Position numbers and translations under genes: made by a program
From: Candidatus Atribacteria bacterium
GTDB lineage: Bacteria > Atribacterota > Phoenicimicrobiia > Phoenicimicrobiales > Phoenicimicrobiaceae
Reading direction: 5' to 3'
NCBI GenBank assembly: GCA_011056645.1
Contig: DSEL01000150.1
Span: 1 to 35,336 of the forward strand
Length of the DNA stretch: 35,336 nucleotides
Shown: piece after piece, positions 2,388 through 35,336 of the stretch
Position numbering within the stretch: the stretch's first letter is position 1
Layout: every line of letters starts with the position of its first letter
The notes under the pieces: generated by a model
Databases searched by the model: none
The model's input: only the letters and a program-made list of their open reading frames with translations
Told to the model about the DNA's origin: nothing

Positions 2388-4109
2388 TTATAAATAAGCG
2401 TTTAATCCGTATTGAAGAACCATTCGATGGGTGTTAAAGAAGGAAGCATTTATGGCAATACTATGACGCATGATATTAATCCATTTTCCTCTATTCTGGT
2501 AATAAATTGGGATAACTGTATTGTGTAATTTATCATATAAGGAAGCTGCATCTTCCTGATCACTGCTTTTGATATCAGGTGCTGATCCAATCGCCCATCC
2601 GGTAAATCCTTCAACGCAGCCTTCGATCCACCATCCATCTAAAATACTTAAACTAGGGATGCCATTGTGTGCTGCTTTCATTCCTGAAGTACCTGATGCT
2701 TCTAGCGGTTTTTTGGGAGTATTTAACCATAAATCTACCCCCGAAACTATTCTCTTAGCTAAATCTAAATTATAATTTTCCAGGTAAACAACCTCTATTT
2801 GTCCTTTAAGCTGTTGGGAAATATGAACAATCTTTTGGATTAATTCCTTCCCCGACCAATCTTTAGGATGGGCTTTACCAGAGAATATTAGTTGGATTTT
2901 ACCAGTCTTTCTGGAAATATCTACCAACCTATTGATATCATAAAAGATTAAATCTGCCCGTTTATAAGCTGTTGCTCTCCTGGCAAAACCAATGGTTAAC
3001 ACTTCCGAATTAAATTGCACCCCTGTTTCTTGAAAAATAATATCAATAAGACATTTTTTCGCTTCCTGATGAGTTTGCCATACTTCCTCATCCGGTATAT
3101 TTAAAGCGTATCGCAAACTAAAGGGATCATTTTCCCACCCCGGAATATAACGATCAAAGAGTTTTCGAAAATGAGGACTTACCCAGGTAGCAGAATGAAC
3201 CCCATTGGTAATTGAATTAATATGGTACCCGGGAAACATCTCCTGGGAAATTACTCCATGTCTTTTGGCCACTCCATTTATATAATGGCTTAGATTAAGA
3301 GCAAGAGCAGTCATATTCAAGCTTTCTTGTCCACCGAATTCCTTTAATAAGGGTTCAGGGATAGGTTTTCCTAAAACCTTTCTCACCAAGTCATAAGAAA
3401 ATTGATCCATGCCAGCAGGTACCGGTGTATGAGTGGTGAAAATACACAAGCTTTTAACTTTCTCGACAAGACTATTATTCCACTTTTCCTCCTGATGATG
3501 ATAATAATCGAGCAGTTCCAAAGTCAACAAACTAGCATGTCCTTCATTCATATGATATTTAGAGATAGTATTAAATCCCAGCTCCCTAAGCATTCTCACT
3601 CCGCCAATTCCCAATACAATTTCCTGGGCGAGCCGGTATCTTTTGTCACCACCATACAAGTAATCAGAAAGACTACGATCATAAACACTATTTTCCGGTA
3701 AATCAGTATCCAAAAATAAGACGGGGGTGCAATAATTATCCAAACCTTTTATACAAAAAAGCCATGCCTGAATCCAAACTTTTCTATTCTCAATTTCGAT
3801 TAAAATTTTATTGGGTAATAATTGCATATAATCTTGAGGATTCCATTCTTCGGGTAATTCCACCTGAATCCCTTCTTTTTTATCAACTTCTTGATGTAGA
3901 TACCCCTTCTTATAAAGCAAGGTAACACCAACCAGGGGAACTTTTAAGTCCGCAGAAGAGCGGAGCATATCGCCGGCTAAAATCCCCAATCCTCCGCTGT
4001 AAGAAGGTATTTTGCCATCTACACATATTTCCATAGAAAAATAGGCAATTTTTTTATCTTTTTTAAACCTTTTAGGAATTTGAAAAAGGACTCCTCCCTT
4101 AGCTTCCAT
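2388..4109 (-). CDS. glgP: Alpha-glucan (glycogen/maltodextrin) phosphorylase, short GT35 form
   Basis: This releases glucose-1-phosphate from alpha-1,4-glucan ends using PLP. The pocket motif GTSGMKAAHNG carries the PLP lysine (K478), followed by LDGWWIEG. Other family motifs are KIAYFSMEI near residue 20, SYSGGLGILAGD near 36, YHMNEGHASL near 185, TTHTPVPAGMD near 225 and GFARRATAYKRADL near 374. At 573 residues it lacks the N-terminal DUF3417 domain of the roughly 850-residue bacterial and archaeal homologues. I start at the ATG at 4109 because AAAGGAG sits 5 bases before it; the reading frame also allows a TTG 15 bases upstream, but that codon overlaps the ribosome binding site. It lies upstream of otsA-otsB on the same strand and divergent from the glucan-building operon, so it probably mobilises the polymer that operon makes. 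Confidence 0.93.
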   Translation of the reverse strand: MEAKGGVLFQIPKRFKKDKKIAYFSMEICVDGKIPSYSGGLGILAGDMLRSSADLKVPLVGVTLLYKKGYLHQEVDKKEGIQVELPEEWNPQDYMQLLPNKILIEIENRKVWIQAWLFCIKGLDNYCTPVLFLDTDLPENSVYDRSLSDYLYGGDKRYRLAQEIVLGIGGVRMLRELGFNTISKYHMNEGHASLLTLELLDYYHHQEEKWNNSLVEKVKSLCIFTTHTPVPAGMDQFSYDLVRKVLGKPIPEPLLKEFGGQESLNMTALALNLSHYINGVAKRHGVISQEMFPGYHINSITNGVHSATWVSPHFRKLFDRYIPGWENDPFSLRYALNIPDEEVWQTHQEAKKCLIDIIFQETGVQFNSEVLTIGFARRATAYKRADLIFYDINRLVDISRKTGKIQLIFSGKAHPKDWSGKELIQKIVHISQQLKGQIEVVYLENYNLDLAKRIVSGVDLWLNTPKKPLEASGTSGMKAAHNGIPSLSILDGWWIEGCVEGFTGWAIGSAPDIKSSDQEDAASLYDKLHNTVIPIYYQNRGKWINIMRHSIAINASFFNTHRMVLQYGLNAYL

Positions 4110-4154
4110 AAGTGCTCCTTTCAAAGCTCGACAATGATTGATAATCTTATTTAC

Positions 4155-4172
4155 CTACAATAAAAATTGTAG
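4155..4172. promoter_or_regulatory. Perfect 7-bp inverted repeat, operator-like
   Basis: CTACAAT-AAAA-ATTGTAG is a perfect palindrome with a 4-base spacer, 46 bases upstream of the glgP start in the divergent spacer 4110-4425. Position and size suit a dimeric repressor site, but no regulator gene is in the window and the region is very AT-rich. The rest of this 316-base spacer holds the promoter at 4299 and no gene. Confidence 0.3.
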
Positions 4173-4298
4173 ATTCAACTTAACTATTTATATATAGAAC
4201 TGAAATATCTTGCCTCATTTTTTTCCGTCAATACATTTTAAAATTTAATAACTGTACCATCCTTCAGCGGTAAAAAATAAAAAAGACAATTCATTTTC

Positions 4299-4327
4299 TT
4301 GATATATGTAGTGCAAAATGATATCAT
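4299..4327 (+). promoter_or_regulatory. Predicted sigma-70-type promoter of the glucan operon
   Basis: TTGATA and TATCAT are separated by exactly 17 bases; each box matches 5 of 6 consensus positions. A start site just after 4330 would give a leader of about 90 bases before the DUF5752 gene. It is the best promoter match on the plus strand in the divergent spacer. Confidence 0.5.
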
Positions 4328-4425
4328 AAAAATAAGAGATTTGCAAATTCAATTACCCCACTAAAGTTTACACTAACGATAAAATTGTAATTGAATAGAT
4401 TAAAAAAATAGGAGGTTAGAAAAAA

Positions 4426-4710
4426 ATGGCAAAAAAATACCAGAATATCGATATTAATCAAGAAGCTCCTTCAGTACAAAACTATTTTTATTTAAACAAC
4501 GGAAAAAAGTTAAAAAATATTGCTGAATTAATGGAAAATTTACAATATATGGACCAGGGTTTATTTTCTTTTCATGTAAATGAGCAACATAATGATTTCG
4601 CCATCTGGATTCGCGATGTATTCGGGGAAAAGGAGCTAGCTCGCCGAATAAGTAAAGCCCGTTATCCTGCTAACATGTTAAAATCAATAGAAAAATATAT
4701 CCAAAGATAA
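4426..4710 (+). CDS. DUF5752 family small protein, first gene of the glucan operon
   Basis: This is a 94-residue soluble protein with no membrane segment or signal peptide. Features seen: a central FYLNNGKKLKNIAELMENL segment, a FSFHVNEQHNDFAIWIRDVFG core and a basic, helical C-terminus (ELARRISKARYP to the end). The NDFA-WI-DV core and preceding helix look like DUF5752, an uncharacterised family. This assignment is from memory, not a search. AGGAGG lies 10 bases before the ATG. Being first in the operon, 52 bases before glgE and behind the predicted promoter, it may regulate or scaffold glucan synthesis, but the sequence shows no catalytic motif and the role is unknown. Confidence 0.75.
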   Translation: MAKKYQNIDINQEAPSVQNYFYLNNGKKLKNIAELMENLQYMDQGLFSFHVNEQHNDFAIWIRDVFGEKELARRISKARYPANMLKSIEKYIQR

Positions 4711-4762
4711 GATAGAAAGGATTTTTCTTATTTATTACCTTAATAAAAATAAAAAAAACAGA

Positions 4763-6727
4763 GTGGTCATTGAAAATGTCCAACCTGAAATTGATGGTGG
4801 TTCATTTCCCATCAAAAGAATTATCGGAGAAAAAATAAAGGTCACGGCAGATATCTTTGCTGATGGTCATGATCAGATCAGAGCCTCTCTTCTATTTCGA
4901 AAAAAAGGAAAAGAAAAATGGCAGTTTTCTCCCATGAACTTTGAAGGAAATGACCGGTGGTCCGGAGATTTTACAGTCCAAGGAATAGGTATCTACGATT
5001 ACAGTATAGAAGGATGGGTCGATCCTTTAATAACCTGGCTGAATAATATCCCAAAAAGATTTCAAGCGCAGGAAAAAATAAAAGTTGACATCTTAAGTAA
5101 TATTCCTCTTTTGGAAAGATTAGCTCAACAAATAACCTTAAAAGAAAGAAAATATATAAACCAGATTATTACCAGATTAAAAGAAGAAGACAAACCCGAA
5201 AAATTAGTAGCCATTCTCCAGGATAAGACACTGTCGATTATTATTCAAGAAAATCCTTTAAAATATCATAAAATTCGCTATTGTAAAAAATTAAAGGTAA
5301 TCATTGATCGAAAGAAAGCTTTATTTAGCACCTGGTATGAGCTGTTCCCCCGTTCCTGTTCCCAAGAAAAAAACCAGCATGGCACTTTTTTAGATTGCGA
5401 AAAAATCCTGCCTGATATTGCCAAGCTGGGTTTTGATATTCTTTATTTTCCCCCTATTCACCCCATTGGAAAAACCCACCGTAAAGGGAAAAATAATAGT
5501 ATAATTGCTCAAAAAGGAGATCCGGGAAGTCCCTGGGCGATAGGAGATGAATCCGGTGGACATATGGCTATTCATCCCCAACTGGGAAATCTCAACGACT
5601 TCCATCGGTTGATAAAAAAAGCAAAAGAATATGGTATTGAAATAGCCCTGGATTTAGCTTTTCAGTGTTCCCGGGATCATCCTTATATTAAAATCCATCC
5701 GGAATGGTTCAGATGGCGAGCGGATGGGACCATTCAGTATGCTGAAAATCCTCCCAAAAAATATGAGGACATCGTACCCTTTGATTTTGAAACAGATCAC
5801 TGGCAAGAATTATGGCAAGAACTCAAGAAAATTACTTTTTACTGGATAGAACAAGGAATTAAAATCTTTCGAGTCGACAACCCTCATACTAAACCTTTTC
5901 TATTTTGGGAGTGGCTGATTGGTCAAGTTAAAGAAAAATACCCGGAGGTTATCTTTCTCGCAGAAGCTTTTACTCGACCAAAAGTAATGTATCGTCTGGC
6001 TAAAGTCGGTTTTACCCAATCTTATACTTATTTCAGCTGGAGAAATACCAAAAATGAATTAACGGAATATCTGAATGAGCTCACCAATAGCAAGATTAAA
6101 GAATACTTTCGCCCAAATTTTTGGCCAAATACGCCGGATATCCTTTCTGAATATCTGCAATCGGGAAATAGACCGGCTTTTCTTATTCGATTTATTTTAG
6201 CTGCTACCCTTTCTTCCAATTACGGGATTTATGGACCTGTCTATGAACGATTCATTAATCAGGCTATTGCCGGAAAAGAAGAATATCTTTATTCAGAAAA
6301 ATATGAAATAAAGCAGTGGAAAAATGAAGACATCAAAGAAAATACTCGTGATTTTATTTCCCGAATCAATCAAATTAGACGGGAGAATTCCGCCTTTCAG
6401 ATGACTAATAATCTCAAATTCTATCATGTAGATAATGATAATTTGATTTGTTTTGCTAAATTTAACAATGATCTGTCCAATATTATTTTAGTGGTGATTA
6501 ATTTAGATCCTCACTATACCCAGTCAGGATGGGTTCAGGTTCCGCTATCTGATATGGGTATTGAAACTGACCAGCCCTTCCTTGCCCATGACCTATTAGG
6601 AGGCGATCAATATATCTGGAAGGGCGAATACAATTATGTGGAATTAAATCCAAATACCCTTCCTGCCCATATCTTTAAAATGAAAAAAAGATTGAAGAAA
6701 GAAAGTGATTTTGATTATTTCGCATAA
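4763..6727 (+). CDS. glgE: Alpha-1,4-glucan:maltose-1-phosphate maltosyltransferase GlgE
   Basis: This extends alpha-1,4-glucan by maltosyl units from maltose-1-phosphate, releasing phosphate (GH13 subfamily 3). The N-terminal domain (about 1-110) begins with the typical VQPEIDGG...GEKIKVTADIFADGHD pattern. A helical insert follows (about 115-180), then the barrel from WYELFPRS (191). IKIFRVDNPHTKP holds the nucleophile D372 and FLAEAFTRP the acid/base E401. The length of 654 residues is normal. The GTG at 4763 is the first conventional start, but no good ribosome binding site precedes it. The frame stays open upstream, and the upstream residues NRV also resemble GlgE N-termini, so the true start may be slightly earlier, for example the ATT at 4730, 9 bases after GAAAGG. 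It is 12 bases before treS-mak, whose kinase domain makes its substrate. Confidence 0.95.
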   Translation: MVIENVQPEIDGGSFPIKRIIGEKIKVTADIFADGHDQIRASLLFRKKGKEKWQFSPMNFEGNDRWSGDFTVQGIGIYDYSIEGWVDPLITWLNNIPKRFQAQEKIKVDILSNIPLLERLAQQITLKERKYINQIITRLKEEDKPEKLVAILQDKTLSIIIQENPLKYHKIRYCKKLKVIIDRKKALFSTWYELFPRSCSQEKNQHGTFLDCEKILPDIAKLGFDILYFPPIHPIGKTHRKGKNNSIIAQKGDPGSPWAIGDESGGHMAIHPQLGNLNDFHRLIKKAKEYGIEIALDLAFQCSRDHPYIKIHPEWFRWRADGTIQYAENPPKKYEDIVPFDFETDHWQELWQELKKITFYWIEQGIKIFRVDNPHTKPFLFWEWLIGQVKEKYPEVIFLAEAFTRPKVMYRLAKVGFTQSYTYFSWRNTKNELTEYLNELTNSKIKEYFRPNFWPNTPDILSEYLQSGNRPAFLIRFILAATLSSNYGIYGPVYERFINQAIAGKEEYLYSEKYEIKQWKNEDIKENTRDFISRINQIRRENSAFQMTNNLKFYHVDNDNLICFAKFNNDLSNIILVVINLDPHYTQSGWVQVPLSDMGIETDQPFLAHDLLGGDQYIWKGEYNYVELNPNTLPAHIFKMKKRLKKESDFDYFA

Positions 6728-29503: not shown

Positions 29504-29540
29504 TACCTTGATTGAAAATTGAAAATAGAATATTTAAAGA

Positions 29541-29700
29541 TAAGCAGATTAAGGGAAGAGTGGTGAAAATCCACCGCAGTCCCGCTACTGTAATGAGGAA
29601 CGAAAGCTGTAATAGGCCACTGTTAAACACTTACAAAAAGTGATAAATGGGAAGGCACAGCAATTAGATTAACCTCTAAGCCAGGAGACCTGTCTGCTTA
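29541..29700 (+). promoter_or_regulatory. Cobalamin riboswitch
   Basis: Conserved blocks are in the right order: GGGAAGAGTGGTGAAAATCC from 29553, then CCGCAGTCCCGCTACTGTAA from 29574, and the B12 box AAGCCAGGAGACCTGTCT ending at 29695. The ends TAAGCAGA (29541-29548) and TCTGCTTA (29693-29700) are perfectly complementary and close the P1 helix. It binds adenosylcobalamin or a related corrinoid and normally represses when bound. Downstream ACTTCTTCGTGGAAAAGGGGG (to about 29733) is also typical of the element's 3' side. I see no clear terminator hairpin before btuF. Confidence 0.95.
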
Positions 29701-29780
29701 GGAAAATAAATCACTTCTTCGTGGAAAAGGGGGTGTTATTTTTATTTATAATATATACAATTAACAAATTAACTCTTTTC

Positions 29781-29860: not shown

Positions 29861-30781
29861 ATGAAATTATCACAAAAATTATTCCTGATATTTGCTTCTT
29901 TAGTATTTTTCTTAAATCTTTTTTTATTAATGGGTTCGTCAGCGACCATTAATTACCCTATAACTATCATTGACGACACCGGCACTGAAGTTACCATTCC
30001 CCGGGAACCTCAGCGCATTATTTCCACTGCCCCCAGTAATACCGAAATATTATTTGATTTAGGACTTCAGGAAAAAATTGTAGGAATAACTAACTATTGC
30101 AATTTCCCGGAAGAAACTAAAAATATTGAAAAAATCGGAGAAATATCTCCCTTGAATTTTGAAAAAATTATTTCTTTAAATCCGGATCTTATCTTGGCTT
30201 ATGCCGGATTCCAGTTAAAAGAAATCCCTCGCTTGCGAGAACTGGGTTTAACTACCATAGTTCTTGAACCTTTAACACTTGAAGACACTTTTAACAGTAT
30301 AAAAATGATAGCCAGGGTTTGTGGAATATCGGAAAAAGGTTCTTCATTGGTAGACCATCTATCCCAAAGAGTCCATATTATTCAATCTAAAGTTTCAACA
30401 ATTCCTTTTTCTGATCGTCCTAAAATATTTGTGGGAAGTACTTCGGAAACCATCTTTACCCCGGGGGCAGGTACACTGTTTCATGAACTGATCACTTTGG
30501 CCGGAGGGCAAAATATAGCCTCTGACCTTGCTTTTTGGAAACAAGTTAACCCGGAGTATGTTGCTCAGGCAGAACCGGATATCATTATTATCCCAGTAGG
30601 AGTAATGAACCAGGGAGACGAATCAAAAATTAAAAACAATATATCTCAACGTTCCGGCTGGTCTAATATACCAGCGATAAAAAAACAAAAGATCTTTGTA
30701 GTAAACGAAGACCTTTTTTACCGCGCTGTACCCAGGCTGGTAGAAGGACTCGAATTACTATATCGAATATTCTATGAATAA
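29861..30781 (+). CDS. btuF: Cobalamin ABC transporter substrate-binding protein
   Basis: A secreted corrinoid-binding protein of 306 residues. The N-terminus is a signal peptide (KLSQKLFLIFASLVFFLNLFLL, then MGSSA) without a lipobox cysteine. The helical-backbone metal-receptor fold is shown by ITIIDDTGTEVTIPREPQRIIS, APSNTEILFDLGLQEKIVGIT, EKIGEISPLNFEKIISLNPDL and the C-terminal VNEDLFYRAVPRLVEGLELL. Such proteins bind B12 or iron chelates. Here the cobalamin riboswitch in the leader and cobO nearby point to B12. GGAGG lies 6 bases before the ATG. The 3' end overlaps btuC by 8 bases. Confidence 0.9.
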   Translation: MKLSQKLFLIFASLVFFLNLFLLMGSSATINYPITIIDDTGTEVTIPREPQRIISTAPSNTEILFDLGLQEKIVGITNYCNFPEETKNIEKIGEISPLNFEKIISLNPDLILAYAGFQLKEIPRLRELGLTTIVLEPLTLEDTFNSIKMIARVCGISEKGSSLVDHLSQRVHIIQSKVSTIPFSDRPKIFVGSTSETIFTPGAGTLFHELITLAGGQNIASDLAFWKQVNPEYVAQAEPDIIIIPVGVMNQGDESKIKNNISQRSGWSNIPAIKKQKIFVVNEDLFYRAVPRLVEGLELLYRIFYE

Positions 30782-31808
30782 ACAATCAAGAGAAATTTAC
30801 GGCTATACCAACTGGCGAAAAAAATTAATATTTTTGTTTCTGATAGGAAACTTAAGCATCCTGGGAGTCAGTCTAATCTGTCTTAACTTCGGGGTGGTAT
30901 CTATTCACCCTAAATATATTATTTCTCTCCTTTTAAATGGTACCCAAGATAAAACTACAAATCTGATTATCTGGCAGCTAAGAGCACCCCGAATCGCTTT
31001 AGGAATAATCACCGGTGCCGCTTTATCTACCGTGGGAGGGGCTTTCCAGGGCATTTTAAGAAACCCTCTGGCTGATCCCTATATTTTAGGAGTATCCGCT
31101 GGTGCCGCTTTGGGTGCATGTATCGGTATTGCCTTACAGCATGCTACCGGTTATCTCTTTGCATCTTACCTTCCTCTATTTGCTTTTATCGGAGCTATGT
31201 TCTCTCTTTACCTGGTATATAAATCATCTAAAATCAGTTATTCTGCCAATTCTACCGGACTGCTTCTTGCCGGGGTAGCTATCACCTTCCTCTTTTCTGC
31301 GCTGATAACTATTCTTCTGGCTATTTCACGAAAAGAAATACAAACTATGGTGTTCTGGCTTATGGGAGACTTATCTACCGCTAACTGGGAAAAAACAAGC
31401 ATCATTGTTCTTCCGGTAATATCTGGCTGTCTGCTCTTGTTCTTTTCTTCCCTGGATTTAAATGCCTTATCTTTAGGAGAAGAAGAAGCTCTTCATTTAG
31501 GAATTAATACCGGTAAACTAAGAATTCGTATCTTTCTGATTGGTTCCATCATTATTGCTTCCGTAGTATCCTTTACCGGTCTTATAGGTTTTGTAGGATT
31601 GGTTATTCCCCATATTGCCCGGCTTTTAGTGGGACCAGACCATCGAATTATGTTGCCTGCGTCGGCCTTTCTGGGAGGAATTTTTCTTATTTTATGTGAT
31701 GTATTAGCTCGAACTGTCATAGCGCCGACTGAAATACCTATCGGAGCAATCACCGCTATTGTAGGCGCCCCTTTATTTATTTATCTTTTAAGGAGGAAAA
31801 ATAAATAA
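30774..31808 (+). CDS. btuC: Cobalamin ABC transporter permease (FecCD family)
   Basis: An inner-membrane permease of 344 residues with about ten hydrophobic segments. FecCD hallmarks: LRAPRIALGIITGAALSTVGGAFQGILRNPLADPYILGVSAGAALGA (about 68-115), a FWLMGDLSTANW loop, EEEALHLGINTGKLR (ATPase-coupling region) and the C-terminal FTGLIGFVGLVIPHIARLLVGPDHR. It pairs with the BtuD ATPase to import the ligand bound by BtuF. Its ATG lies inside the last codons of btuF, so translation is probably coupled. Nothing is truncated. Confidence 0.94.
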   Translation: MNKQSREIYGYTNWRKKLIFLFLIGNLSILGVSLICLNFGVVSIHPKYIISLLLNGTQDKTTNLIIWQLRAPRIALGIITGAALSTVGGAFQGILRNPLADPYILGVSAGAALGACIGIALQHATGYLFASYLPLFAFIGAMFSLYLVYKSSKISYSANSTGLLLAGVAITFLFSALITILLAISRKEIQTMVFWLMGDLSTANWEKTSIIVLPVISGCLLLFFSSLDLNALSLGEEEALHLGINTGKLRIRIFLIGSIIIASVVSFTGLIGFVGLVIPHIARLLVGPDHRIMLPASAFLGGIFLILCDVLARTVIAPTEIPIGAITAIVGAPLFIYLLRRKNK

Positions 31809-31809
31809 T

Positions 31810-32595
31810 ATGGCTGACAATAACTTTATTTTAACTTTAAAAGGAGTCCACTTCTCTTACCATGATAATCGGGAAATATTATCAAATATAAACTTTTGTC
31901 TACCAAAAGGAGAGTTGTTAGGAATAATCGGGCCGAACGGTTCCGGAAAAACGACTCTTTTAAAGATTATCTCAGGAATATTAAGACCAAAAAAAGGAGA
32001 AATTTCTCTCCTCAACCAAAATCTTAATAAACTTCCTATTGAACAAATTGCCAAATTCATCTCGGTAGTTCCTCAAGATACCTGGGTTACTTTTAATTTC
32101 AAAGCAAAAGAAGTCATATTTATGGGAAGACTTCCCTATATTTCCCGATTAAGAGGAGAAACCCTTGAAGATTATCAAATATCTCGAGAAGCTATGCAAA
32201 AAACCCATTCTTTATCCCTTGCTGAAAACAATATTCAAGAAATAAGTGGAGGAGAAAGACAAAGGATTTTTATGGCAAAAGCCCTGGCACAAACTCCACA
32301 GCTTCTACTTTTAGATGAATTCACTTCTCACTTAGATTTAAACTATAAATATGAGATGTCAAATCTCTTAAAAAAAGCCCTCAAAGAGGAAGAATTAACC
32401 ATTATATCTGTCTTTCATGATCTAAATTTAGCCAGTATCCTTTCTCACCGTCTTATTCTTTTGAATGAAGGCAAAATAGAAAAGATAGGCACCCCTCAAG
32501 AAGTATTAAACGAAGAAAATTTACGTAAAGTATACGGAGTAAACCCCATATTGATTGATCATCCTGACCTCAAAGTGCCCCAGGTGATCATGTAA
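31810..32595 (+). CDS. btuD: Cobalamin ABC transporter ATP-binding protein
   Basis: The ATPase of the importer, 261 residues. Walker A is GPNGSGKTTLLK (about 40-51), the Q-loop is VVPQDTW, the ABC signature is EISGGERQRIFMAKAL, Walker B is LLLLDEFTSHLD and the switch histidine is in SVFHDLNLA. The C-terminal GTPQEVLNEENLRKVYGV is common in FecE/BtuD-type proteins. The ATG follows the btuC stop by one base; AGGAGG lies 13 bases upstream. It ends the riboswitch-controlled operon, with no clear terminator in the 129 bases that follow. Confidence 0.95.
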   Translation: MADNNFILTLKGVHFSYHDNREILSNINFCLPKGELLGIIGPNGSGKTTLLKIISGILRPKKGEISLLNQNLNKLPIEQIAKFISVVPQDTWVTFNFKAKEVIFMGRLPYISRLRGETLEDYQISREAMQKTHSLSLAENNIQEISGGERQRIFMAKALAQTPQLLLLDEFTSHLDLNYKYEMSNLLKKALKEEELTIISVFHDLNLASILSHRLILLNEGKIEKIGTPQEVLNEENLRKVYGVNPILIDHPDLKVPQVIM

Positions 32596-32724: not shown

Positions 32725-32811
32725 ATGACAAGCACCTGGTATTGGATTATAGGAATTGCTATTGTAGTGATAGTAATATATCTAATATGGGGCAGGAAGA
32801 AAAAAGCTTAA
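32725..32811 (+). CDS. 28-residue single-span membrane peptide
   Basis: The frame reads MTSTWYWIIGIAIVVIVIYL, then IWGRKKKA and stop. Residues about 5-22 form one hydrophobic helix, followed by a basic tail that predicts the C-terminus stays in the cytoplasm. A textbook GAAAGGAGGTG site lies 7 bases before the ATG and a TATAAT lies 80 bases upstream, which is why I accept such a short gene. I recognise no family. It sits between the B12 importer and the c-di-GMP riboswitch/HD-GYP gene. It could be a small membrane-protein partner or a type I-toxin-like peptide; no antisense RNA is visible by eye. Confidence 0.6.
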   Translation: MTSTWYWIIGIAIVVIVIYLIWGRKKKA

Positions 32812-32966
32812 AAGTGAGTTCCTTCCTTGACATCTTGATGCATCCAACAAGCCAAAGTGTTTTTTTTAAAAAATAGATACAAAAAATTTATAAAATGATG
32901 TCTAAATTCAGTGTATATAGGGAATAAATAATGTGATGGAGTTTTTTAACTGAATAGCTGCTTTAT

Positions 32967-33058
32967 AAGGTTGAAAAAGGCAAACTACCTGAAAAGGTAG
33001 GACGCAAAGTTATGGGTCTTCGGTATTTTAATACCATGACCGCCAAACTACCAACTTT
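32967..33058 (+). promoter_or_regulatory. c-di-GMP-I (GEMM-I) riboswitch
   Basis: The aptamer core is plain: GGCAAAC, then hairpin CTACCT-GAAA-AGGTAG with a GNRA tetraloop (32985-33000), then GGACGCAAAG (32999-33009). A second hairpin follows, with nested stems GGTC/GACC and GGTATT/AATACC (33016-33040). AAGGTTG (32967-32973) can pair with CAACTTT (33052-33058) to close P1. The same 3' strand can instead pair with AAAGTT (33006-33011), and a T-run follows, so a transcriptional switch is likely. It lies 65 bases before the HD-GYP gene. The rest of 32812-33122 shows no gene. Confidence 0.93.
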
Positions 33059-33122
33059 TTTTATTTTGGAGAAAACTTATTTGCCCAAAAACTCGTTACA
33101 TTAATTTATAATATCTAATAAA

Positions 33123-34913
33123 TTGCCCTACGAGAGTTTTATAAAAAGAGGTGGTAGCGAAATTTTAAAATTAATCCCCAACCTTAAATTAGAAGATTTT
33201 GAAAAAACAAAAACAAAATTAATTATTATTTTTACTTACAGGTGTATTGTTTTACCCCTTTTTTTAATTACAACTTTAATTCTGAATTATTTTTTCCATA
33301 TTCGCATTTACCACGAACTTTACATTCTAATTTTAAGCTGGTTTATATTAAGTTACCTATCTCGATACATTTTAAAGAAAAGAACAATTTGCCTTTCCGC
33401 CTTAAAAAAAATAGATTTCGTCCATTATATTATCGGCTTATTATTTATGACTGGGTTCTTTTACTACACCGGGGGCATTCTATGGATTGGAGCTATTTTT
33501 TTTGTATTCCCCATTCTTTATGTAAGCCTTTTATCTGACCCCAAAGAAGGATTAATTATTACCTTGATGGCTATTACTTTTTTTAGCTTGGTAGTTTTTC
33601 TGGAATATTTGGGTTATCTTCCACACAAAGAAATCATTAAATTTAATCCTTATCTTTATAAAGATTTCCGTTATCTTGCGGGCACGGTTTTGACGACAAG
33701 TTTAGTATTTATATTAATTTTTTTTGCAAGTAAAGATTTTTCCCAAATATTAAAACAGAAAAATGATGAATTAGTAAAAACCCAGAAAGAATTAGAAGAA
33801 TTGAGTAATAAATTAGAAGATAAAGTAAAATTACAAACCAGCGAACTAAAACTATCAAAAGATCGACTATCTGTGCTTTACCAAATATCTCGAACGATCA
33901 GCTCTACCTTACAAATCGATGATATTTTAAAAACCATTTTAAGTTTTTCTATCAAAATAAGCGGAGCAGGCAGAGGTTCGGTTATGCTTTTAGACAAAAA
34001 GAAAGGTATCTTCTTTATTAAAATTCCCCATAATAAGAAGGAAAAAAATATTGATAAAATTACTTTTGCCGAAAATGAAAACACTATCGGTTGGGTAGTT
34101 AAGCATAAAAGATTCTTATATATCGAAGACTTAGAAAATGATAAAAAATTTTCAAAAATAAAACTGATTCGCCGGCGAATAAAACAGCTTTTAATAATCC
34201 CTATTATTATAGAAGATAAAGTGATAGGGATTATAAATTTAGAAAACACTTCCCTTAAATCCGATACCATCGATTTATTAAGGTCTTTTTCTGAGGGAGC
34301 AGCTGTTGCTATTAATAATGCCAACTTATATCAGAAAATTCAAGATAGTTATTTTGAAATAGTAAAGGCATTAGCTCAGGCGATAGAAGCAAAAGACCCC
34401 TATACTCACGGTCATTCGGAAAGAGTTATGGAATATTCGATAGAAATTGCCCAAAAATTGGAACTACCAAAAGAAGAGATAGACTTGTTAAAGTATGCAG
34501 CAATGTTGCATGACATCGGGAAAATTGGAGTGAAAGGAATTATTTTAAATAAATCTATGGCTTTAACTGTTATGGAATATGATGAAATCAAGAAACATCC
34601 CCTTATTGGTGAGGGGATTATAAAACCCATAGAATTATTACAACCGATCAGACCATTAATCAAACACCATCATGAATGGTACAATGGTAAAGGTTATCCT
34701 GATAGATTATCCGGAGAAAATATTCCTTTAGGTGCCCGTATCCTGGCAGTAGTTGACGCCTATGATGCCATGAAATCCGATCGCCCCTATCGTAAAGCTT
34801 TAACTGAAGAAACCACTATCCAGGAGCTTAAAAGAGGGAGCGGCGCTCAGTTTGAACCTAAAATAGTAGCACTATTTTTAGAAATATTAAAAATGAAAAT
34901 TCAAGAAGAATGA
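33123..34913 (+). CDS. Membrane GAF-HD-GYP protein, probable c-di-GMP phosphodiesterase
   Basis: A 596-residue signalling protein. Six hydrophobic helices span about 33-58, 65-84, 98-116, 118-137, 142-162 and 185-202; a coiled coil follows (about 207-247), then a GAF domain (about 250-400) and an HD-GYP domain (about 405-590). Catalytic motifs: THGHSERV (428-435), HDIGKIG (463-469), KHPLIGEGI, HHHEWYNGKGYPD (515-527, with N where many have D) and ILAVVDAYDAM. HD-GYP domains hydrolyse c-di-GMP. The upstream c-di-GMP riboswitch supports this. The start is taken as TTG at 33123; no ribosome binding site is seen. The frame is open from 33105, so the start is uncertain. Confidence 0.9.
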   Translation: MPYESFIKRGGSEILKLIPNLKLEDFEKTKTKLIIIFTYRCIVLPLFLITTLILNYFFHIRIYHELYILILSWFILSYLSRYILKKRTICLSALKKIDFVHYIIGLLFMTGFFYYTGGILWIGAIFFVFPILYVSLLSDPKEGLIITLMAITFFSLVVFLEYLGYLPHKEIIKFNPYLYKDFRYLAGTVLTTSLVFILIFFASKDFSQILKQKNDELVKTQKELEELSNKLEDKVKLQTSELKLSKDRLSVLYQISRTISSTLQIDDILKTILSFSIKISGAGRGSVMLLDKKKGIFFIKIPHNKKEKNIDKITFAENENTIGWVVKHKRFLYIEDLENDKKFSKIKLIRRRIKQLLIIPIIIEDKVIGIINLENTSLKSDTIDLLRSFSEGAAVAINNANLYQKIQDSYFEIVKALAQAIEAKDPYTHGHSERVMEYSIEIAQKLELPKEEIDLLKYAAMLHDIGKIGVKGIILNKSMALTVMEYDEIKKHPLIGEGIIKPIELLQPIRPLIKHHHEWYNGKGYPDRLSGENIPLGARILAVVDAYDAMKSDRPYRKALTEETTIQELKRGSGAQFEPKIVALFLEILKMKIQEE

Positions 34914-35002: not shown

Positions 35003-35336
35003 CTAATCAAATTCGTCTATTTTAAATTCAAATCCTTTTTCTCTAAATAGTTTAAGGCAAATATCTACTACTTCTGGGTCGTAGAGAATACCTTTGTTTT
35101 TAGAGATTTCTTCCAAAGCTACATCTATCCCTAATGCTGGTCGGTAAGGACGGTTAGAGGATATGGCTTCAACAACATCAGCTATTCCTATAATTTTAGC
35201 TTCCAGGATAATCTCATCACCTTTCAGATTATTAGGATATCCTGAACCATCTAATCTTTCATGATGTTGAAGAATAATTTGAGCTACAGGATGGTAAAAA
35301 TCTATGGATTTTAAAATATCATATCCCATTTTAGGA
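35003..35336 (-). CDS. HD-GYP domain protein, C-terminal part (5' end outside window)
   Basis: The visible 111 codons are the C-terminal part of an HD-GYP domain: PKMGYDILKSI, IILQHHERLDGSGYPNNLKG (with the canonical D in DGSGYP), EAKIIGIADVVEAISSNRPYRPALG and a closing helix to KIDEFD. The frame runs off the window edge, so the internal ATG at 35329 is not the real start. It converges on the riboswitch-controlled HD-GYP gene with an 89-base gap without a clear terminator. Probably another c-di-GMP phosphodiesterase; sensor domains upstream are unknown. Confidence 0.88.
   Translation of the reverse strand, partial: PKMGYDILKSIDFYHPVAQIILQHHERLDGSGYPNNLKGDEIILEAKIIGIADVVEAISSNRPYRPALGIDVALEEISKNKGILYDPEVVDICLKLFREKGFEFKIDEFD

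Follow-up and report, generated by a model that had tools for sequence, protein, structure and literature searches.

A c-di-GMP-I riboswitch, probably a translational ON switch, before an HD-GYP phosphodiesterase gene in Candidatus Atribacteria

One review places GEMM riboswitches before genes for cyclases and phosphodiesterases (PMC3971182), and another calls self-limiting loops of the kind considered here rare. Vc2 is described as a translational OFF switch (PMC9262584). pilM of Geobacter, which responds to cGAMP, and Bc4 of Bacillus thuringiensis, which responds to c-di-GMP, are GEMM-I ON switches (PMC9262584, PMC4759541). No report on riboswitches in Atribacteria was found in the literature searched. 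We analyzed a 35,336-nt stretch of Candidatus Atribacteria DNA (contig DSEL01000150.1, positions 1-35,336; the window), whose coordinates are given on the forward (+) strand unless marked (-). The genome to which it belongs (G000) has 13 GEMM-I aptamers, 8 GGDEF matches and 14 HD-GYP matches. EAL matches are absent from this genome, which makes the HD-GYP proteins its only recognised c-di-GMP phosphodiesterases. By inspection, its remaining aptamers lie upstream of predicted lipoprotein, secreted-protein and type IV pilin genes. The family comparison set comprised 72 GEMM-I aptamers from 14 genomes. The reading that we favor, with some reserve, is that the c-di-GMP-I riboswitch in the window switches on translation of an HD-GYP phosphodiesterase, closing a negative-feedback loop that is probably under kinetic control.

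The aptamer lies at 32969-33055. The initial annotation had named it GEMM-I and proposed a covariance-model search, and cmscan gave a full-length match to RF01051 (model positions 1-87 of 87; 82.8 bits, where the gathering score is 35; E = 4.8e-15). Its P1 could also be verified as drawn there, with 7 bp between AAGGTTG (32967-32973) and CAACTTT (33052-33058), as could the T-run after the P1 3' strand, a U7 run (33056-33062) that is invariant in four orthologs. In the alignment to the model the ligand-contact positions match: G20 is G32979 (RF01051 model position 11), A47 is A33006 in GACGCAAAG and C92 is C33051. The numbering map is based on PMC6274999 and on the numbering of Vc2. Position 20 in the cGAMP riboswitch structure is the last base of J1/2, directly before P2 (PMC6274999), and a cGAMP riboswitch was made c-di-GMP selective by an A20G change (PMC6456294). 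Since position 20, the ligand-specificity base, is a G here, c-di-GMP is the expected ligand; cGAMP, whose GEMM-Ib class needs A20, was considered and rejected on account of the same base. The GNRA tetraloop of P2 is present as GAAA. The P3 receptor, which is common but not universal, reads CUUCG...CAUG as against CUAAG...UAUG; [CU]UAA occurs in 66 of the 72 family aptamers and is absent from three of the four HD-GYP leaders. This degenerate receptor counts against our favored explanation. We speculate that it could make a weaker aptamer, and hence raise the c-di-GMP threshold of the HD-GYP brake.

The open reading frame at 33123-34913 carries GAF (PF13185/PF01590) and HD_5 (PF13487, 124 bits) domains, in agreement with the GAF/HD-GYP gene annotated initially. 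The gene itself probably occupies 33162-34913 and encodes, by inspection, a hydrophobic N-terminus before GAF and HD-GYP. The nearest solved structure is PDB 4mcw (phmmer, GAF and HD-GYP parts, E = 1.2e-44). In the alignment to it the HD-GYP domain (34368-34865) has all the HD, K, H, HH and D metal/catalytic positions as well as the GYP motif, within HDIGK, KKHP, HHE, GYP and VVDAYD. With its catalytic residues intact, the predicted HD-GYP phosphodiesterase should degrade c-di-GMP, with some uncertainty about substrate choice because one relative (5z7c) is a cGAMP phosphodiesterase. Among named genomes, the top match comes from Candidatus Atribacteria RBG_19FT_COMBO_35_14; it is 82% identical and has the same aptamer upstream. 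A search of 50 genomes of the phylum gave no orthologs of the N-terminal and GAF part outside the genus. Four orthologs have a readable leader, namely the window, G005:C27, G007:C41 and G011:C234; the gene in G011 appears broken or misassembled further in.

Other features of the window lie around this gene. A second HD-GYP gene (35003-35335, (-)) is convergent with the first and is truncated by the contig end. Between an ABC transporter gene and the riboswitch there is a short frame (32725-32808) for a 27-residue hydrophobic peptide (MTSTWYWIIGIAIVVIVIYLIWGRKKKA-like), preceded by a strong AGGAGGTG Shine-Dalgarno; the peptide has no Pfam matches. Further upstream, a cobalamin riboswitch (29529-29711, 92.3 bits) precedes a transporter-like gene set (29861-32595). 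It looks ordinary, and locus L041 has one too.

The initial annotation put the aptamer 65 bases before the gene. The open frame runs from TTG 33123, which is probably not the start; AUU 33162 is likelier. As a start, TTG 33123 was rejected: it is TTA in the three orthologs, and in G011 an in-frame TAG follows three codons on, at the position of window 33132. No ATG, GTG or TTG start is conserved across the four orthologs; all of them have AGGUGG with AUU or AUC 7 nt further on. On these grounds AUU 33162, about 106 nt past the aptamer, is our best guess and the likely start. This codon is unusual, which also counts against the favored explanation. The probable Shine-Dalgarno is GAGGTG (33148-33153); AGGTGG is kept in the four orthologs, and where it is displaced by 3 nt the likely start moves with it.

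The aptamer 3' end has a conserved partner around this Shine-Dalgarno. The switching strand CUACCAACUUUUUUUAU (33048-33064) comprises the ligand-pairing C, the P1 3' strand and the U-run, and it pairs with the capture strand AUAAAAAGAGGUGGUAG (33141-33157), which contains the Shine-Dalgarno and lies about 85-100 nt downstream of the P1 3' strand and U-run. Sixteen of 17 pairs are possible in each of the four orthologs, and the helix, with the RBS buried, is the minimum-energy fold in all four. It also appears in the RNAalifold consensus, together with an adjoining hairpin (33089-33139; AAACTC, 33089-33094, with GAGTTT, 33134-33139; RNAalifold columns 132-138/182-188) that is stacked on it. Shuffled sequences averaged -6.2 to -8.7 kcal/mol, compared with -16.5 to -18.3 for the duplex (p 0 to 0.003); the four orthologs are related, so these results are not independent. 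Runs rich in A and in U pair easily in AT-rich DNA, but the shuffles and a set of 121 control gene starts with a Shine-Dalgarno from family DNA argue against such an origin: none of the controls was as strong (best -12.8, window -15.8). The capture strands of the window and G005 differ at four positions, of which two keep the pair, one gains and one loses it. With four orthologs of one genus and few substitutions, the covariation support is thin.

Occupying the P1 3' strand, the ligand-pairing C33051 and GAGGUG, the helix cannot coexist with the bound aptamer. A helix that contains the RBS, excludes the bound aptamer and is kept in the orthologs is therefore predicted, as expected for RBS sequestration, and the initial idea of mutually exclusive helices is supported, though with this downstream strand as the partner. 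In ensembles constrained to P1, the Shine-Dalgarno has an unpaired probability of 0.2-0.8 in the window and near 0 in G005 and G011; this incomplete exposure of the RBS in the window, and its lack in the two orthologs, counts against the ON model. In other GEMM leaders of the family, the same helix search mostly gave nothing better than shuffles, and the remaining strong cases were terminator hairpins in which the aptamer 3' end is captured. In L034, L077, L078 (G011:C96, G009:C113, G010:C375) and L024 (G008:C318) the partner of the aptamer 3' end lies directly before a U-run, and these leaders are classical ON terminators. The relatives also include further RBS-burying designs of ON logic, with AAUCGCC pairing to AGGAGGCGAUU.

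The following sequence of events may be envisaged. As the transcript grows, the aptamer with P1 would form first, leaving a window of time for c-di-GMP to bind. In growing-transcript folding, the P1 fold is at the energy minimum, or within about 4 kcal/mol of it, until about 90-105 nt past the aptamer, and beyond that length it trails by 6-14 kcal/mol, depending on ortholog and length. With the capture strand present, pairing of the switching strand to it is favored by about 7-11 kcal/mol. Binding of c-di-GMP during this interval would lock P1, leave the RBS free and allow the enzyme to be made. Otherwise 33048-33064 would pair with 33141-33157, so that P1 and the C33051 pairing are lost and the RBS is buried. 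The enzyme, once made, would lower c-di-GMP, giving an ON switch with negative feedback, which was the sign suggested initially and is probably the likelier one. We infer ligand binding, RBS opening and enzyme activity as steps of this scheme. By our estimate, micromolar ligand could hardly repay the P1 deficit at equilibrium, so control is probably kinetic, and this need for kinetic trapping is held against the favored explanation. For two related GEMM-I RNAs, the ligand complex has a half-life in the range of 25-190 s (PMC9262584).

The initial annotation had proposed another competitor of P1: without ligand, AAAGTT (33006-33011) would pair with 33053-33058 and transcription would end at the U-run, so that ligand turns the gene on by preventing termination. 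The six consecutive pairs exist as written, and a helix of this type is complete in 32 of the 47 family leaders, out of 72 aptamers, that have a U-run next to P1. Shuffled partners, however, already give 29.0 +/- 1.8 complete helices (p about 0.09), so no significant covariation was seen. The folding comparison advised by that annotation, with the transcript ending at the U-run, has the P1 fold as minimum (-26.3 kcal/mol), and forcing the alternative costs 5.6 kcal/mol. Among 13 relatives that allowed the comparison, such a helix never outdid P1, and G008:C318 and G004:C87:1239, whose P1 strands are altered, keep P1 and break the other helix. The match is largely automatic, since AAAG is invariant in the aptamer and the usual P1 5' strand, AAAGTTG, resembles that region; the AAAGUU/AACUUU helix is best taken as a side effect of the resemblance of AAAGUUG to the invariant CAAAG. 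We regard transcriptional control of this form as very unlikely. Conservation instead points to the downstream RBS strand as the partner of the P1 3' strand and U-run, which makes a translational switch likelier.

That P1 is the minimum fold of a transcript ending at the U-run would also suit the opposite sign, in which ligand-stabilised P1 and the abutting U7 form a terminator, high c-di-GMP silences the gene and feedback is positive. The U-run abuts P1 here and in the 47 family leaders. Yet P1 would be an atypical terminator, a 7-bp A/U-rich stem closing a branched domain of about 80 nt, and a scan of the + strand found no intrinsic terminator downstream of the aptamer, though one is present in a few relatives. 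Given the conserved RBS-burying helix, the gene would moreover be off in both states. Some relatives have, beyond a U-run next to P1, a true terminator in which the aptamer 3' end is captured, so a P1 terminator would be redundant there. Transcriptional silencing by ligand thus seems unlikely. Partial termination at the U-run might instead be combined with RBS burial. The U-run is kept even where relatives have no downstream capture strand, and for Bc1, a GEMM-I riboswitch of Bacillus thuringiensis, dual control of transcription and translation has been described (PMC11218506). The scan gave no direct evidence of termination at this locus, and we hold such dual control to be quite improbable. 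The translational ON switch remains our preferred reading.

Upstream of the aptamer there is a promoter-like element, GTCTAAA-N13-GGGAAT (32900-32925), that is shared with other GEMM-I leaders and present in three of the four orthologs. It resembles sigma-B-type promoters. It occurs four times in the 2.25-Mb window genome, each time just upstream of a GEMM-I aptamer; a pattern search of the genome placed the other copies, all on the (-) strand, at G000:C89:1739-1764, C145:3535-3560 and C164:2260-2285. The 14 genomes contain 27 occurrences, 24 of them beside a GEMM-I aptamer, against 9 for the reversed pattern as control, and a slightly looser pattern matched 26 of 70 GEMM leaders and 1 of 532 control windows. 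L092 4682-6132 (G000:C145) holds two DUF6982 genes and a tandem pair of genes for SigB/F/G-like sigma factors. Both sigma genes score below the family's cut-off; they adjoin a type IV pilin locus with tandem GEMM, one of the loci with the promoter-like element, and their products are candidate readers of this element. It is conceivable, if rather doubtful, that these sigma factors and the c-di-GMP-I riboswitches jointly gate a surface/pilus regulon in this Atribacteria clade, one carrying the HD-GYP ON switch as a brake, whose weakened receptor would let it open at higher c-di-GMP than its sister riboswitches.

Other leaders of the family have different designs. Conserved tandem GEMM pairs occur at G000:C89:1400-1638(-), G001:C6:39763-40014, G007:C1:4755-4976 and G010:C349:1212-1433(-). 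The first aptamer of each pair has a U-run next to P1, and the P3 3' strand of the second (AAUCGCC/AUCGCC) is complementary to GGCGAUU at the Shine-Dalgarno. The cGAMP-type A20 is found in seven relatives. Five orthologous-looking A20 aptamers (G000:C201:4034-4122(-), G005:C10:3814-3902, G007:C34:2409-2497, G010:C39:2542-2630 and G013:C29:20570-20657(-)) have a Shine-Dalgarno directly after the aptamer (GAAGGAGA/GAAGGAGG) and a small secreted protein downstream, and may be cGAMP-type switches of opposite sign.

The locus offers a concrete self-limiting loop in an uncultured phylum, with sensor, enzyme and competing helix conserved in four species; if true, the ordinary metabolite-feedback logic of riboswitches would here be applied to a second messenger. 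A separate case was observed in L050, from an uncultured Firmicutes: a GEMM-I aptamer (1481-1568) is followed by an intervening frame and then by an HD-GYP/GAF/GGDEF frame (2413-4764). The HD-GYP protein of the window has the GAF-then-HD-GYP order of PmGH (PDB 4mcw/4mdz/4me4), to which its residues 248-589 could be aligned, but it has an additional hydrophobic N-terminus and DPYTHGH where PmGH has DPETQNH. The aptamer and the RBS logic are of known kinds, while the target is uncommon and the expression platform is specific to this locus. With Vc2, the type example of RF01051, the riboswitch shares the full aptamer, the ligand-contact bases and the GAAA tetraloop of P2. Vc2 is translational, as the riboswitch in the window probably is too. 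The latter differs in having a c-di-GMP phosphodiesterase as its predicted target, in its likely ON sign and in the strand that would bury the RBS, which is the aptamer 3' end with the U-run. As in pilM and Bc4, a downstream strand is predicted to capture the aptamer 3' end, that is, the ligand-pairing C and the P1 3' strand, when ligand is absent. pilM senses cGAMP through A20, while the aptamer in the window has G20. In pilM and Bc4 the captured fold is a transcription terminator, its hairpin lying directly before a U-run; in the window the capture strand holds the RBS and is followed by CGAAAUUUUAAAA, not by a U-run.
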